Part shown: positions 12,026 to 51,863 of the stretch, in pieces | Layout: every line of letters begins with the position of its first letter | Position numbering within the stretch: the stretch's first letter is position 1 | Assembly: GCA_021813405.1 (NCBI GenBank) | Contig: JAKAKS010000022.1 | Coordinates: 186,001 to 250,000, forward strand | DNA length: 64,000 bases | Direction of reading: 5' to 3' | From: Nitrospirota bacterium | GTDB lineage: Bacteria > Nitrospirota > Thermodesulfovibrionia > Thermodesulfovibrionales > JdFR-88 | Made by a program: the position numbers and the translations under genes | Notes under the pieces: model-generated | What the model was told of the DNA's origin: nothing | Database searches by the model: none | What the model saw: the letters and a program-made list of their open reading frames with translations, nothing else

Positions 12026-12245
12026 TTGGAGCCCTTACTCCCTTTCTTCCCGCCTTACCCCAAAAAAAGCATCAGCTTTTTAAGGGCCCCGGCCTTGGGC
12101 AAATTCAGCATATCATACCGGAATCAAAGGTTTTTTAAAAGGACGGACTTCAGAAGGCGACGAGCCCGGGGAGGCTCCCCTGGCGCCTGCCTTGCACACT
12201 TGAAAAAAACCGTTCAAAGAAGCATATTACATATGGGGGGAAGTA

Positions 12246-13541
12246 TTGGAAACAAACAGCCAAAACAAACACAAGGAAGAAGATTTGAATACTGGCGGCT
12301 CCGCATCTGAGGGCGGCGAAGCGGGTCTGCTTTACCGCACCCTGTTTGAGCAATCACCGGACGGCATTGTTGTAATCGATACAGGCGGCACGGTGGTGCA
12401 GTTCAACGAAGCGGCCCATACCCAGATGGGATACACAAGGGAAGAGTTTGAAGGCATCCATTTATCCAGGCTAACCCTGTCGGGAAGCCGGGAAGAGATC
12501 CAGGCAAAAGCCAGGGATATAATCAAAGCAGGCAAGGCTGAGTTCAGGATAAAGCGCAAGACCAAACAAGGGGACATAAAGGATATCCATGTAATTACCC
12601 AAACGATAAACCTTTCCGGTAAGGCGTTTTTCCACAGCATCTGGCGCGATATTACGGAGCAGAAAAAAGCCGAGGAAGCGCTTTCCGAAAGCGAGGATAA
12701 ATACCGCGCACTGGTTGAAAGCACGGATGATTCAATCTACCTGGTGAACAGGGATTTCAAATACCTGTTTATGAACAAAAGGCACACTGCCCGGCTGGGA
12801 ATACTGGGAAATGAGTACGTTGGGCGCACTTATGGTGATTTCCATACGCCTGAGGAAACAAAGGCGTTCATAAAGGAGGCTGTAAAGGTTTTTGAAACCG
12901 GCGAATCCGCCCAGCATGAGTATAGAAGCGTAAGGGACGGCGGGTATTTTGTACAGACACTGAGCGCCGTTAAAGACAAGGCCGGCAAGACCGTAGCGGT
13001 TACAATAGTTTCAAAAGACATAACGGAACGCAAAAAAATGGAGGAGGAACTCCGGGTATTGTCGCTTACGGACGAACTTACCGGGCTTTACAACAGGCGG
13101 GGGTTCCGCCTGCTTACGGAGCAATACCTGAGGTTATGCAAACGCCGCAAGCAGGGGGCGTATATGCTGTATGCGGACGTGGACGGACTAAAGCGCATAA
13201 ACGACGTGTTCGGGCATCAGGCGGGCGATTCGGCGCTGATCGATACGGCCGAAATCCTGAAGACCACCTGCAGGATTTCCGATATTATCGCCCGTACCGG
13301 CGGGGACGAATTTGTGGTAATCCCGCTGGGCATTTCGATGGACGATGTCAAAAAGATTATCAGCCGGCTGGAAAAGAACCTCGCAATTCATAATTCGGAT
13401 AAAAGGCGCGGTTATGCATTGGCTATCAGTTTCGGCATTTCCTATTACGCCCCAGAGTCCGGTACGACACTGGATGAACTTGCGGAACAGGCCGAAAAAA
13501 TGATGTACGAACAGAAAAACAGCAAGCGCAAGGCCGGATAA
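12246..13541 (+). CDS. PAS-PAS-GGDEF diguanylate cyclase
   Basis: Synthesises c-di-GMP from two GTP. It has 431 aa and no membrane segment. PAS1 lies near residues 28-140 (LFEQSPDGIVVIDTGG ... WRDITEQ), PAS2 near 145-270 (ESTDDSIYLVNRDF ... SKDITERKKMEEEL), and GGDEF near 275-430. The active-site motif GGDEF at residues 355-359 is intact, and an I-site RISD sits five residues before it, so product inhibition is likely. The start is TTG, chosen because GGGGGGAAG is just upstream. No EAL domain follows. It can supply the ligand of the riboswitch at 48.6 kb. Confidence 0.93.
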   Translation: METNSQNKHKEEDLNTGGSASEGGEAGLLYRTLFEQSPDGIVVIDTGGTVVQFNEAAHTQMGYTREEFEGIHLSRLTLSGSREEIQAKARDIIKAGKAEFRIKRKTKQGDIKDIHVITQTINLSGKAFFHSIWRDITEQKKAEEALSESEDKYRALVESTDDSIYLVNRDFKYLFMNKRHTARLGILGNEYVGRTYGDFHTPEETKAFIKEAVKVFETGESAQHEYRSVRDGGYFVQTLSAVKDKAGKTVAVTIVSKDITERKKMEEELRVLSLTDELTGLYNRRGFRLLTEQYLRLCKRRKQGAYMLYADVDGLKRINDVFGHQAGDSALIDTAEILKTTCRISDIIARTGGDEFVVIPLGISMDDVKKIISRLEKNLAIHNSDKRRGYALAISFGISYYAPESGTTLDELAEQAEKMMYEQKNSKRKAG

Positions 13542-41758: not shown

Positions 41759-42781
41759 TTAGGCCAGGGCCCGGAAGAAGCCAGGATGAGCGGAGGTGTT
41801 GAATATGAAAACCTCCACTATTGCGGGGTCGAACTGTATCCCTGAGTACCGGGTGAGCTCGTTCAATGCCTTTTCATGGGTGCCGCCGCTCCGGTAAGGC
41901 CGGTTGGAGACGATTGCGTCGTACGTGTCTCCTATCGATATTATCCTGGAGTAAAGCGGGATTTTCTCCCCGGCCAGGCCGTGCGGATAGCCAGAACCGT
42001 TAAAATTTTCGTGATGATGGAGGATTGATGGCAGTATGGACTCGAATTGCTTCAGGGGCTTGAGTATCTCCACCCCCTTGCCGGGATGGTCCCGCACAAT
42101 CTCTAGTTCGCTGGCGTTCAGGGCGCCCTCCTTGGCCAGGATGAAATCGCTTATGCCTATCTTGCCGATGTCGTGGAGCATGGCAGCGGTCTTAAGCTCG
42201 TCCAGGGAATGGACGTCCATTCCCATGCCAACCCCGATCAGTTCAACGCACTTCTTTACGCGCTGGCAATGTCCGAATGTACCGGTGTCCCGCTTCTCCA
42301 TCGCCTGCGCAAGCGTGCTCAAGACGGAAAAATAAACGCCCCCCAGCTCTTTTATCTTTTCGTCCAGTCTGAACTCCAGTTCCAGGAGCATCCGCTGCCG
42401 CTCCCTCTCGTTTTCAATCTTGTGCCTTATGCGCTCGATGCATTTTATCAGGTCTGCCGTTGAAAAGGGTTTTTTAATGAACTCGGCCCCTGCCCTGAGC
42501 GCCCGGATCTCCAGTTCCTGGCTGACCTGGCCGGTTATTATTATGAAGTGGGCGGAAGGATATGCTGGGGCAAGGCGGCTCATCAGCTCCACGCCGCTGG
42601 TCTCCCTGAGGCATTGGTCCAGGAATATTATTTCAAAGTTTACCCTGGATAAAAGGTCGAGGGCTTCCCAGGTGTTCGAGGCTGTTTGGACATCATAGCC
42701 GGATTCATTGAGCATGGCCGCAAACACTTCGCGGATGACTTGCTCGTCGTCAATAAGCAATATCTTCAAAGACTGGTCCAT
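41759..42781 (-). CDS. Response regulator with HD-GYP domain (c-di-GMP phosphodiesterase)
   Basis: 340 aa. The receiver domain (residues 1-120) has acceptor D55 (IIFLDQCL) and K104 (KKPF). The HD-GYP domain (about 145-335) has the metal pair H203-D204 in LHDIGKIG, HHHENFNGSGYPHGL with the GYP motif, and PLYSRIISIGDTYDAI. It hydrolyses c-di-GMP when activated by a kinase. It is third in the 43.4-41.8 kb minus-strand set and may be controlled by the CRP-like site at its head. Confidence 0.94.
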   Translation of the reverse strand: MDQSLKILLIDDEQVIREVFAAMLNESGYDVQTASNTWEALDLLSRVNFEIIFLDQCLRETSGVELMSRLAPAYPSAHFIIITGQVSQELEIRALRAGAEFIKKPFSTADLIKCIERIRHKIENERERQRMLLELEFRLDEKIKELGGVYFSVLSTLAQAMEKRDTGTFGHCQRVKKCVELIGVGMGMDVHSLDELKTAAMLHDIGKIGISDFILAKEGALNASELEIVRDHPGKGVEILKPLKQFESILPSILHHHENFNGSGYPHGLAGEKIPLYSRIISIGDTYDAIVSNRPYRSGGTHEKALNELTRYSGIQFDPAIVEVFIFNTSAHPGFFRALA

Positions 42782-43582: not shown

Positions 43583-45397
43583 TTAGAGGCTTATTTTTAT
43601 GGTGAAATCAGTACCTCGGCCTTCTGCGGAGTCGAAGTAAATCTCCCCTCCGTTTCTGGCCACTATCTTCTTTGCAATAGAAAGGCCAAGCCCGGTTCCG
43701 CCTTTGCCGGTCTTGGTAGTGAAAAATGGGGTGAATATTTTGTCGCGGATGGCCTCCGGTATGCCGGGGCCTATATCTGAAATCATTATAAAGACCGAAT
43801 TGTCACTGGCCCATGTCCTGAATTTGAGAGAGCCTTTTGGGCCCATGGCGTCAAGTGCGTTTGTAATAAGAATAAGGAGTATCTGCTTTAAATCCCCCGC
43901 ACCCAGGACTGCGTGCGGCAAATCCGCTTGATATTGCTTGTGCACCTCAACCCCCTTAAGCCTCCCCTGAAGGCCGATGAGTTCCAGGGCTTTGTCGATT
44001 GTGTCATTTATATTAACAGGGCCCTTTTCAAAAGTCCGCAGGCCGGTAAACGAGAGCGCCTCGCCCGTTATCGATTTGCACCTCTTTACCTCTTCTTCGA
44101 TTATCCTTAGATACCGGCTGAAGAGTTCCGGATCGAATTTCTCCTTTCGCATCCTTTCAAGCAGCGCCTCCGCGCAACCGCCTATGGAGGCAAGCGGGTT
44201 ATTTATCTCGTGGGCCATGCCTGAGGCTATCTGGCCAAGGGCGGCCAGGCGTTCCGTGAAAATCAGCTGCATCTGGTTTTCACGTTCCTCAGAGATGTCC
44301 TTCATTATATGTATGGAGCCCGCCACCCCGTCTTCTGAAAACAGCGGGAATGTGCGGATCAGAAAGAGCCTGCCCAGGATTGGCTCATACAGTTCTTCGG
44401 AGTGGGACAGGCCGTCCTTCAGGGTCATTGTATGCGGGCATCCCTGAACAGGCTGGTCTGTTGCATGCAACAGCTCGTAGCATTTGCATCCAATAATCCT
44501 GTTTGGATCGCCGCCGAAGCAGTCAAGAAATTTCCTGTTTGCCTTTATGATCCGGAAATCCTTGTCATGAATTGATATCATGTCAGTTATGCTGTCGAAT
44601 GTTTCCTGCCAGTGCTGCTTGGACTCCGCAATTTTCCTTAGAAACTCGTCTTTTTCCCTGTCCCTTTCCTCGATGGATTCAAGCATATCGTTCAAACGGC
44701 CTTCCAGCATGGTAATTTCATCGCCGCCTTCAACCGTTATCTTCTGTCCGAAATCCCCCTCTTTTATCTTTTTTACCTTCTCCATAATCCCGCCAAGACG
44801 CCTGCTAACTAGTTTATTTCCGATAAAGAAAAGCGAGAGCGATATCGAGGAAATTATGCCCACGCTGAAAAAGACGATAGTCCATAACTCATGGCTCATG
44901 TGCCTTTTCATGATTTTCGGATCGAAATCTATGACCAGGACGCCGTTATATTTGTACAAGTCGCCATGGCATATATGGCATTGCGGCTTGTTTTTCACTG
45001 TGGCCACCCACCTGTAAACATTTTCATTGCCAAGCAGAATGCCGTGCTGTTCCGCATGGCATCTGGGGCACCCGGGATGTCCGTAGGCAAATCTCAGCCC
45101 AAGCGCGCGCTGGTCCGTTGCGGCCCTGGCAATACCTTCCCTGTTAAGAAGCACCACATCCTTTACCGGAGCAACCTTTGCAACGGACCGCACGGAGTCC
45201 TTTAGTACCTGAAGGTCCTGCGAGAGCATTGCCCGCTCTATCCTGCTGGTCATGAACCGGCCGGCGGTAGAGCCTATGGCCTCATAAGCGTAAAGGTGGT
45301 CTGCCCGGTCCAGATTGAAATAAAAATAGGTGGAGATTCCACCCATTACAAATATTACCGGCAGGACGTAAAAAGCCAGCTTGCGCCCGATCTTCAC
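43583..45397 (-). CDS. Di-heme (c-type) periplasmic sensor histidine kinase
   Basis: 604 aa. TM1 lies near residues 10-28. The periplasmic domain (about 30-165) carries two CxxCH heme-attachment motifs: CPRCH at 110-114 and CHICH at 140-144. TM2 lies near 172-195. Then come HAMP (about 196-250), a PAS domain (265-375) that contains GCKCYELLHATDQPVQGCPH, the phospho-acceptor H396 (MAHEINNPL), and a complete ATPase domain (N, G1, G2 boxes). A redox, gas or quinone-linked signal read by the hemes is inferred. It overlaps the NtrC-type gene by 4 nt. Confidence 0.93.
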   Translation of the reverse strand: MKIGRKLAFYVLPVIFVMGGISTYFYFNLDRADHLYAYEAIGSTAGRFMTSRIERAMLSQDLQVLKDSVRSVAKVAPVKDVVLLNREGIARAATDQRALGLRFAYGHPGCPRCHAEQHGILLGNENVYRWVATVKNKPQCHICHGDLYKYNGVLVIDFDPKIMKRHMSHELWTIVFFSVGIISSISLSLFFIGNKLVSRRLGGIMEKVKKIKEGDFGQKITVEGGDEITMLEGRLNDMLESIEERDREKDEFLRKIAESKQHWQETFDSITDMISIHDKDFRIIKANRKFLDCFGGDPNRIIGCKCYELLHATDQPVQGCPHTMTLKDGLSHSEELYEPILGRLFLIRTFPLFSEDGVAGSIHIMKDISEERENQMQLIFTERLAALGQIASGMAHEINNPLASIGGCAEALLERMRKEKFDPELFSRYLRIIEEEVKRCKSITGEALSFTGLRTFEKGPVNINDTIDKALELIGLQGRLKGVEVHKQYQADLPHAVLGAGDLKQILLILITNALDAMGPKGSLKFRTWASDNSVFIMISDIGPGIPEAIRDKIFTPFFTTKTGKGGTGLGLSIAKKIVARNGGEIYFDSAEGRGTDFTIKISL

Positions 45398-48441: not shown

Positions 48442-48565
48442 GGAACGAGCTTAGTATACCGCCCCCTGATTGCAATTATCAAATGAACATGTGCTGACAG
48501 GACGCTTGCAAAAAAAGGCTTGACAAGATTTTGCATCGTGATAGGCTGGAATCAGAGATAAGGAA

Positions 48566-48654
48566 CTGCCACCCTATAAAATGGCAAAATGCAGGTAACT
48601 GCATGACGCAAAGCCACCTTTCTGAAAAGAAAGAGGAGCTGCTGGGAGTGGCAG
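48566..48654 (+). ncRNA. Cyclic di-GMP-I (GEMM-I) type riboswitch aptamer
   Basis: P1 pairs CTGCCAC (48566-48572) with GTGGCAG (48648-48654). Inside, GGCAAA (48583-48588) precedes a 6-bp hairpin with GTAA (GNRA) tetraloop, then GACGCAAAGCCAC (48605 on), the strongest GEMM-I signature, and a second hairpin (CCTTTCT-GAAA-AGAAAG) that would hold the tetraloop receptor. Ligand specificity (c-di-GMP or cGAMP) cannot be settled by eye. It precedes a terminator and a sensor kinase gene. Confidence 0.88.
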
Positions 48655-48670
48655 CAAATATAATGGAAAA

Positions 48671-48693
48671 AACCCGCATCCAGCGGGTTTTTT
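48671..48693 (+). terminator. Riboswitch expression-platform terminator
   Basis: AACCCGC-ATCCA-GCGGGTT followed by a T run, 16 nt after the aptamer. It stands before any plausible start of the kinase gene, so it is the likely transcription-control switch. Confidence 0.88.
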
Positions 48694-48713
48694 CTTGGGC
48701 TTCCGAAAACTGC

Positions 48714-50684
48714 ATGCCCGCAAACACTAAGATACTCATACGCCCGTCTATAGAGCTGATGGGCCGATTCAGGTATCGCCAGAAGATGGCCGCCCTCGGG
48801 TTTTTCCTTCTCATCCCGCTTGCCGTTTTTCTCCTTCTATTGGTGTCCCGGATAAATTACAGGCTAACGCTTGAGAGGTCCAAGGGTGACGGCCTTGTTT
48901 ATGTAAGCCATTTGTTAAAGCTGCTTCAGGATGTACAGCAGCACAGGGGGCTTTCCGCGGCATACTTAAGCGGGGGCAAGGGTTTCAAGCGGCTTTTGTA
49001 CGAAAAGGAGCAGGCCGTACAACAAGATATAAAAGAGCTGGATGCCGTTGATAAGCTCTATGGCAAAAAATTTGGCTCCTCTGCCGGATGGAGACAGATC
49101 AAGCAAAAATGGCAGAACCTGCTTTCATCCGGCCATGCAGCCTCAGGCATAACGGGGCTTCAGGGCGGCAATGGTTATAACAATGGAGCTTCAGCCAGCA
49201 TCGAGGCCCACACAGATATGATCAATAACATCCTCTCACTCATCTCCAACATAACAGGCTCTTCCGGGCTTGTGTTAGGGGTACGCAGAGATAGTTTTTA
49301 CCTTGTGGACGCAGTCTCGGACAAACTGCCCCTAGCCTTTGAAAATGCCGGACGGATCAGGGCACTGGGGCTCAATATACTTATAACTGGCGCAACCGTT
49401 AAACGGCAAAGGGCCGAGGCCGCCGTTTTTTCCAGCCTTGTACGATTGTCACTGAACCGGGTACAGGAAGACCTTAGGCGGGCCATAGATGCAAACCCCC
49501 GGATCGGGCCAGACCTCGAACCATTCACGGCTGGGCTTGCAAGCACCGCAGACCAATTTGATGTGATATCACAGGAGCTTTCGGGCGGCCGTGTGCCTGC
49601 TGCCGCATCACAATTCTATAGCGCCATGACAAACACAATCAATTCGGGATACCTTCTGGCCAGCCAGGTTATGATGGTCCTGGGCAAAATGACCGCAATA
49701 AGCCAAACCAGGCTTGCCGCTGAGAGGGATGTATTGGTTATAGCCGCTTTAATGTCTTTCCTGTTTATTTTTTACATGTACCTGGGCACGTCCATATCCA
49801 TACTGGACTCTCTTAATGCGCTTGTAGCCGCTTCAAGGCGGATGGCCTTGGGGGACCTGGATGCAAGAGTGCCCGTAAGCACAAGGGACGAGATGGCGCT
49901 TGTAGCCGCCAGTTTTAACGATATGGCCGGTAACCTTAAGGAGCAGACAGAAACCTTAAGGGCTAAAACAGACCAATTGCAGGAAAGCAATCTGGAGCTG
50001 GACCGTTTTGCCTCCATCGCCTCGCATGACCTGCAGGAACCACTTATTGCGCTTGCAAGCAATCTGAAACTTTTGGAGCGCAGGATGCGCGGTGCGGACC
50101 AGGACGCCAAGGTGCTCCTGGAAGACTCCCTGTTGGTGGCCGGAAGAATGCAGAACCTGGTCAGAAATCTACTTCAATATTCCAGAGCGGGGTCGAGGGC
50201 CGGGGACAAGGCGGCATCTTTTGAAAAAATTGAATCCATGGCTACGCTTCGCTCCGCTCTTGTTTCTTTAAGCGCACTGATAGGGGAATCCGGGGCCCTG
50301 GTCACTTATGGGGAACTGCCGGCTGTTCCGGCAGACCCCGTGCAGTTATCACAGCTTTTTCAAAACCTTATAAGCAATGCGATAAAATTCCGCGGGCAAG
50401 CCCCTCCCGAAGTGTACATTTCAGCGGAAAAAAGCAGCGGGGAATGGGTGTTTTCTGTAAAAGACAACGGCAAAGGCATTGCGCCTGAGCATACCGGCAG
50501 GATATTTGAAATGTTCTTCAGGGAGCCCGGAGGCGGGCAGGTGCGGGGCTCCGGCATCGGACTTGCCACCTGCAAAAAAATAGTGGAGCGGCATGGAGGC
50601 CGGATATGGGTGGAGTCTGTGCCAGGAGAGGGCTCGGTCTTCCGTTTTACCATCCCGGAGATAATCCGCAAAACAAATCCCTAG
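48714..50684 (+). CDS. NIT-like sensor histidine kinase under riboswitch control
   Basis: 656 aa. TM1 lies near residues 25-45. The large periplasmic domain has LQDVQQHRGLSAAYLSG, the helix motif of nitrate/nitrite-sensing (NIT)-type domains. TM2 follows near 340-355, then HAMP, a short coiled coil, acceptor H438 in SHDLQEPLIAL, and an ATPase domain of the phytochrome-kinase-like type. The reading frame runs back to 48531, but that stretch holds the riboswitch and terminator, so the start must be downstream; ATG at 48714 is the first candidate, and ATGs at 48759 and 48786 are alternatives. The ribosome site is weak. Confidence 0.85.
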   Translation: MPANTKILIRPSIELMGRFRYRQKMAALGFFLLIPLAVFLLLLVSRINYRLTLERSKGDGLVYVSHLLKLLQDVQQHRGLSAAYLSGGKGFKRLLYEKEQAVQQDIKELDAVDKLYGKKFGSSAGWRQIKQKWQNLLSSGHAASGITGLQGGNGYNNGASASIEAHTDMINNILSLISNITGSSGLVLGVRRDSFYLVDAVSDKLPLAFENAGRIRALGLNILITGATVKRQRAEAAVFSSLVRLSLNRVQEDLRRAIDANPRIGPDLEPFTAGLASTADQFDVISQELSGGRVPAAASQFYSAMTNTINSGYLLASQVMMVLGKMTAISQTRLAAERDVLVIAALMSFLFIFYMYLGTSISILDSLNALVAASRRMALGDLDARVPVSTRDEMALVAASFNDMAGNLKEQTETLRAKTDQLQESNLELDRFASIASHDLQEPLIALASNLKLLERRMRGADQDAKVLLEDSLLVAGRMQNLVRNLLQYSRAGSRAGDKAASFEKIESMATLRSALVSLSALIGESGALVTYGELPAVPADPVQLSQLFQNLISNAIKFRGQAPPEVYISAEKSSGEWVFSVKDNGKGIAPEHTGRIFEMFFREPGGGQVRGSGIGLATCKKIVERHGGRIWVESVPGEGSVFRFTIPEIIRKTNP

Positions 50685-50843
50685 CATACCCTGCCATATT
50701 TCCCCGATGCAATTGCCTGTTGCAATCAGTCTTTTTGAAGGGTATACTGATTTCTATGCAATCAGAAGTTGTGTCAACCCGGCAAAAAACCGCTAATCAA
50801 TGCAGAATATTACAATCTACAATAGAAAGGGAAGGGGCATGCC

Positions 50844-51863
50844 GTGAATATTCATCATTTAAAAGTATTCTGCTCGGTCTATAAAAACAGGAGTTTCTCC
50901 AGGGCCTCGGAAGAGATGTATCTCAGCCAGCCTACAGTAAGCGACCATATAAAGACCCTGGAAGAGACCCTCGGCGCAAGGCTTTTTGACAGGCTGGGAA
51001 GGAGCATCGCGCCCACGCCGGAATCCAACCTGCTTTATCCCAGGGCCATAGAAATAATAGAAAAATTCAATTCGCTGAAGGGCGAAGTTTTCGAAGCGAC
51101 GGATGCGCCTGCAGGTGAGATCCTGGTTGGCGCAAGCTCAGTACCGGGCACCTATTTTCTGCCCAGAGCGGCGGCGGACTTCAAAAAACTTTATCCGGGG
51201 ATTTCAGTGAAGGTAGTTGCCAGAAACTCAAAGGAGATTGCCGGAATGATTGCCGGAAACGAGCTGCCCTTGGGCATAGTAAGCGGCATCTGGGAGCGCA
51301 AGTGCCTTAAGTTCATGCCGCTTGCTGATGACGAACTGGTCTTTGCGGGTTCCTGCGATTTCGAAACAAAGGGGTTGGCTACCCCTGAGGCGCTCTCGGC
51401 TTTGCCGTTTGTTTTGCGCGAGGAGGGGTCCGGAACAAGAAAAGAAATGGAGGCGGCGCTTTCCACGCTGGGAATACCGGTTCCCAGACTTAAGATTACG
51501 GGGACTTTTGAATCGCTGCCCTCCGTGCTTGAGGCCGTAAAGTCCGGACTGGGGATTAGCGCATTCTGGAGGACTTCCATATCTGATGAATTAAAGAGAG
51601 GAGTTCTCGCCCAAATAAAAGTGAAAGGGTTCAAGGCTGAACATAAGTTCCATATAATCTGCCACAGGAAAAAAACTGTCCCGCGGCCGGCGCAGATGTT
51701 TATCGAGCATTTAAGCATGCTGATAGAAACCAGGGGGCCAGCGAAGGAAAAGGCACGAGGGTTCAGCTTCAAACGGGAGATGCTTAAGGAAATTCAGGGG
51801 ACATCGTTTACTGCTGAGGAGCTGAGAAATCCGTCCGAAAAAGACCCTTATGTTAAAATTTAA
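50844..51863 (+). CDS. LysR-family regulator (selenium-metabolism type)
   Basis: 339 aa. The N-terminal winged HTH (residues 1-60: SRASEEMYLSQPTVSDHIKTLEE) is followed by the effector domain (GEILVGASSVPGTYFLPRAAADF). It resembles the LysR group annotated as selenium metabolism-associated, often next to yedF-like genes; that assignment is from memory. The start is GTG after GAAAGGGAAGGGG. It overlaps the TusA-like gene at its stop codon region and they are likely co-transcribed. Confidence 0.88.
   Translation: MNIHHLKVFCSVYKNRSFSRASEEMYLSQPTVSDHIKTLEETLGARLFDRLGRSIAPTPESNLLYPRAIEIIEKFNSLKGEVFEATDAPAGEILVGASSVPGTYFLPRAAADFKKLYPGISVKVVARNSKEIAGMIAGNELPLGIVSGIWERKCLKFMPLADDELVFAGSCDFETKGLATPEALSALPFVLREEGSGTRKEMEAALSTLGIPVPRLKITGTFESLPSVLEAVKSGLGISAFWRTSISDELKRGVLAQIKVKGFKAEHKFHIICHRKKTVPRPAQMFIEHLSMLIETRGPAKEKARGFSFKREMLKEIQGTSFTAEELRNPSEKDPYVKI

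Follow-up and report, generated by a model that had tools for sequence, protein, structure and literature searches.

Control of a two-component system by a c-di-GMP riboswitch is already known from C. difficile, where the cmrRST system, which includes a sensor kinase, is activated by the class II riboswitch Cdi-2-2; its operon also encodes two response regulators and contains an invertible switch (PMC8844915). Among class I (GEMM-I) riboswitches, Cd1 (Cdi-1-3) of the C. difficile flgB operon consists of an aptamer followed by an intrinsic terminator and acts as an OFF switch over flagellar genes (PMC6366702). The GEMM-Ib riboswitches of Geobacter are cGAMP-selective ON switches with A at position 20 and have cytochrome, pilus and polysaccharide targets (PMC6456294), and in O. 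alaskensis a class I aptamer precedes the regulator gene norR (PMC11124144). Our literature search, outside whose coverage several key target lists lie, found no report of a class I riboswitch preceding a kinase.

The locus described here lies in a 64-kb stretch of DNA from a member of the Nitrospirota, referred to below as the window. Like cmrRST, it places a c-di-GMP riboswitch over a system with a sensor kinase, but the riboswitch is of class I, is predicted to be an OFF switch, and the kinase has no response regulator nearby in its own direction of transcription. As in Cd1, an intrinsic terminator follows a GEMM-I aptamer, whereas the target here is a sensor kinase and the switching is predicted; with the Geobacter riboswitches it shares clan and fold, but it carries G at position 20. 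Building on elements established by computation (the aptamer, its closing helix P1, the terminator, an antiterminator pairing exclusive of these, the identity of the kinase and the conservation of the locus), we consider it probable that this class I c-di-GMP riboswitch turns off, at the transcriptional level, the gene for a membrane sensor histidine kinase, with the ligand, switching direction, transcript start and physiological consequence (less sensor at high c-di-GMP) as its predicted components.

Aptamer and leader architecture

A cmscan search of the whole window against all 4227 Rfam families, to which the E-value refers, returned a single match above gathering, to c-di-GMP-I (RF01051) at 48573-48646 on the forward strand (58.9 bits, E 5.9e-9; gathering score 35). 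The alignment spans the full model (1-87), and the RNA itself is an ordinary member of the c-di-GMP-I class, with a GUAA tetraloop capping P2. Helix P1 is outside the Rfam model and was therefore assessed by folding. Both the minimum-energy and the centroid structures of 48566-48693 contain P1, P2, P3 and the terminator, with P1 formed between 48566-48576 and 48643-48654 as 7 bp plus 4 bp around a bulged A; its outer helix pairs CUGCCAC (48566-48572) with GUGGCAG (48648-48654). The folding energy of the leader is -54.2 kcal/mol (z -6.3), a value reached by none of 200 dinucleotide shuffles.

The intrinsic terminator, CCCGC-AUCCA-GCGGG followed by UUUUUU(C), occupies 48673-48693 (+; hairpin 48673-48687, then the U-run), and its stem including the A/U extension amounts to -17.3 kcal/mol. 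It begins 66 nt past the CGCAAAGC core, outside the aptamer, is separated from P1 by an unpaired A-rich linker, and lies in the interval from the aptamer to the kinase gene, which contains no other gene. Together, P1 and the terminator stretch the element to about 48566-48694, matching the span marked by the first-pass annotation, whose GEMM-I aptamer, downstream terminator and NIT-like kinase were all recovered by the covariance-model, folding and Pfam analyses. Upstream, a weak promoter-like site at 48521-48548 (+), read from the sequence, combines a perfect -35 (TTGACA) with a poor -10 (TAGGCT, 3/6); it did not pass the consensus scan and is unchanged in the sister species. The transcript may start near this site.

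The target kinase and its neighbourhood

The gene following the terminator (48714..50684, +) encodes a sensor histidine kinase of 656 aa with NIT (PF08376, E 7.7e-7), HAMP, HisKA and HATPase_c domains, all above Pfam cut-offs, and the translation carries an H-box (SHDLQEPL) and ATP-binding boxes. Its start codon is a predicted one, since the open frame extends back through the aptamer to 48531. For most of the distant homologs the alignment starts at kinase residues 4-9, counting from 48714, and homolog N-termini resemble the kinase from the region of 48714 onward, which makes 48714 the best choice of start.

A LysR-family regulator (Pfam; 50844..51863, +) may be the second gene of the kinase transcript; scanning of 50600-50900 identified no terminator-like site and one weak promoter-like site. 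No response regulator is encoded near the kinase in its own transcript direction. The divergent strand encodes two further kinases, an NtrC-type regulator, a single REC protein and a REC-HD-GYP protein, of which the single REC protein could, by proximity, be the partner of the riboswitch-linked kinase. One kinase of this divergent signalling cluster, a HAMP-PAS histidine kinase at 43583-45397 (-), has two CxxCH haem-binding motifs (CPRCH and CHICH) in its sensor part, which suggests a cytochrome-type redox sensor kinase. The GGDEF and HD-GYP proteins that the first-pass annotation had listed in the window are indeed present, at 12204-13541 (+) and, as the REC-HD-GYP protein, at 41759-42781 (-); lying ~35 kb and ~6 kb from the riboswitch, respectively, they are not part of the riboswitch element.

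Probable expression platform and direction of switching

In the minimum-energy fold the aptamer and the terminator are compatible with each other, and that fold by itself thus provides no switch. An unbiased duplex search of the 3' part of the aptamer against the terminator identified a 12-bp antiterminator (8 + 4 bp with one A-A mismatch) between CUGCUGGG-A-GUGG (48639-48651, +) and CCGC-A-UCCAGCGG (48674-48686, +), with a duplex energy of -19.3 to -21.4 kcal/mol. Against the value of -21.4, shuffles averaged -13.1 kcal/mol, and 31 in 5000 did equally well. The 5' strand covers the aptamer core CUGC and the P1 3' strand, and the 3' strand covers both terminator arms, so that the antiterminator is mutually exclusive with P1, with the conserved CUGC of the aptamer core and with the terminator; ligand binding should therefore cause termination. 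With the antiterminator formed, the P1 5' strand is free to pair with the G20-G21 segment (48567-48571/48582-48586), an alternative pairing that masks G20/G21 and thus hides the ligand site. An initial hand-drawn antiterminator (48638-48646 with 48673-48684) was in the wrong register, lay 16 kcal/mol above the P1 state and was rejected.

We propose this newly described 12-bp pairing as the probable expression platform of the riboswitch. At low c-di-GMP, 48639-48651 would pair with 48674-48686, the terminator could not form and the kinase would be transcribed. At high c-di-GMP, the ligand would lock the aptamer and P1 and sequester the antiterminator strand, upon which the terminator would form and kinase production would stop, the net effect being less sensor kinase when c-di-GMP is high. 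The loci of the order form two groups, with the terminator starting either within the aptamer or beyond P1, and the present locus belongs to the latter; among the beyond-P1 loci, it (z -3.5) and its sister (-3.9) account for two of the three strongest antiterminator scores, the other being L096 (-3.8).

An OFF switch is in keeping with C. difficile, where all seven class I switches that are functional are OFF terminator switches, although the direction of GEMM-I switching is not transferable between species (PMC6366702). The same aptamer and target could instead form an ON switch in which the ligand prevents termination and raises kinase expression, as in the Geobacter GEMM-Ib riboswitches, described as ligand-stabilised antiterminators (PMC6456294), or in Bc2 of B. 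thuringiensis, a class I ON switch; many loci of the order also have a terminator starting within the aptamer, as ON switches should. We regard an ON switch as unlikely here. P1 formation cannot block a terminator that starts, as here, well beyond P1 and has no strand in common with the aptamer, and the one strong alternative pairing, the antiterminator, needs an open aptamer.

The energetics bear on whether the leader switches at all. By nearest-neighbour folding, to which kinetics are external, the antiterminator loses to P1 plus terminator by 2.8-15 kcal/mol at all lengths, its state lying 2.8 kcal/mol above the P1 state with the transcript extended to 48684 and 15 kcal/mol above it at full length. 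As the P1 and terminator structure is favoured even without ligand, the direction of switching is one that we infer. Under this model the leader might, absent kinetic effects, terminate regardless of ligand; an OFF switch would require either kinetic access to the apo state or a contribution from pausing and tertiary effects that lie beyond the model.

Conservation in a sister species

These energies also leave room for a second alternative, namely a genuine aptamer with a degenerate or constitutively terminating switch, a remnant with hardly any influence on the kinase. P1 and the terminator are already present in the predicted apo fold, and some C. difficile c-di-GMP riboswitches are non-functional (PMC6366702). 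Comparison with a sister species of the same genus (MAG Nitrospirae DBS2-1.bin64), which keeps the kinase (96% identical), the aptamer (locus L007, likewise of the G20 type) and the terminator with an unchanged hairpin, makes such decay improbable. The 104-nt aptamer and P1 region is identical in the two species, although the third positions of the kinase codons differ by 7.6%. Across the 142-nt leader (48553-48694) the two species differ by a single substitution (48664) and one inserted base (48661), each in the unpaired linker, whereas divergence is 6.3% just upstream of the promoter, 8.8% in the gap between kinase and LysR genes and 10.5% in the 19 nt after the terminator. A rate of 7.6% over 142 nt predicts ~11 changes where two are seen, counts which suggest that the leader is under constraint. 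Furthermore, a constitutive terminator would silence the kinase, yet the kinase is conserved. Both antiterminator strands are identical in the only ortholog, leaving no covariation to read.

A scan of genome contigs recovered the sister MAG only, and RF01051 matched none of 14 loci in the class encoding homologs of the NIT region (24-32% identity over the sensor region). Among the sampled genomes, the link between riboswitch and kinase thus arose within the genus or was kept only there.

Ligand

The aptamer has G at position 20 (UGGCAAA in the RF01051 alignment) in place of the A20 that is the hallmark of cGAMP-binding GEMM-Ib. In the Gmet_0970 riboswitch the substitution A20G switches selectivity from cGAMP to c-di-GMP (PMC6456294), and the predicted ligand here is therefore c-di-GMP rather than cGAMP. 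All six GEMM-I aptamers of the genome carry G20. The genome encodes 14 GGDEF domains, 12 with a readable motif, of which 11 have the canonical Asp and one has Ser, a GAF-GGDEF protein with the motif GHLIGS (L199, 520-2016; G000:C31:31255-31725). Ser at this position, equivalent to PleD D344, is the Hypr (cGAMP-type) signature, and cGAMP may therefore also be made in this organism. That 3',3'-cGAMP is the natural ligand is nonetheless very improbable, for while the GHLIGS protein and the A20-type aptamers (AGCAAA) of other genomes of the order speak for it, the uniform G20 and the other 11 readable GGDEF domains speak against it.

GEMM riboswitch targets in the Nitrospirota

RF01051 was detected in 67 of the 150 genomes sampled from the order and in 175 of the 396 from the phylum. 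Downstream targets were surveyed in 179 regions (119 from the order and 60 further ones from the phylum), most with at least 3 kb downstream; because of truncation at contig ends in some regions and overlap between a few, the target count is approximate. Profile searches of these regions revealed sense-strand kinase targets only in the sister ortholog and at L222, while the kinases at L062, L105, L144 and L156 lie on the strand opposite the riboswitch and hence are not targets. At L222 (202-1525; genome G199, same class but another family), a c-di-GMP-I-GGC aptamer (RF03167) lies directly before a PAS-HisKA_3-HATPase_c kinase, recovered with the HATPase HMM. Like the locus in the window, it has a GEMM-clan aptamer directly before a kinase, but its aptamer belongs to a variant family and its kinase has an unrelated architecture, which indicates an independent association.

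Other GEMM targets in the phylum are surface or secreted proteins with fn3, PKD or Lcl_C domains, multihaem cytochromes, sigma-70 factors, and PilZ, HD-GYP and GGDEF-EAL proteins. One GEMM-I aptamer of the window's own genome lies before a PAS/HD-GYP-type protein (L161, 554-2332), so that one target here is c-di-GMP metabolism itself. GEMM-I aptamers precede sigma-70-family factors in several genera of the order (L093, 481-1809; L096, 482-1402; L102, 1775-3139; L117, 483-1829), through which c-di-GMP might reach global transcription. An odd, metabolic-looking target is an AIR-synthase-related protein (AIRS/AIRS_C; L227, 190-1448), preceded by a GEMM-I aptamer and terminator.

The first-pass annotation had regarded a kinase as an unusual target, which holds for GEMM-I within this phylum, while cmrRST provides a class II precedent. 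Its interpretation that the riboswitch controls the kinase is supported, at the level of sequence, by the covariance-model match, G20, the placement of the terminator and conservation in the sister species. More tentatively, the OFF switch may set the amount of kinase such that c-di-GMP gates sensitivity to the external signal sensed by NIT, and, taken with L222, kinases could constitute a recurrent, unreported class of GEMM targets in the Nitrospirota.

The RNA itself is unremarkable, and cmrRST is a class II precedent. What sets this locus apart is its rare target: GEMM riboswitches of this phylum stand mostly before surface or secreted proteins, multihaem cytochromes, sigma factors and c-di-GMP proteins. 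If an OFF switch does operate here, it would constitute a direct RNA link from the level of c-di-GMP to the quantity of a two-component sensor, and would add a level of gating between the two most common signalling systems of bacteria.
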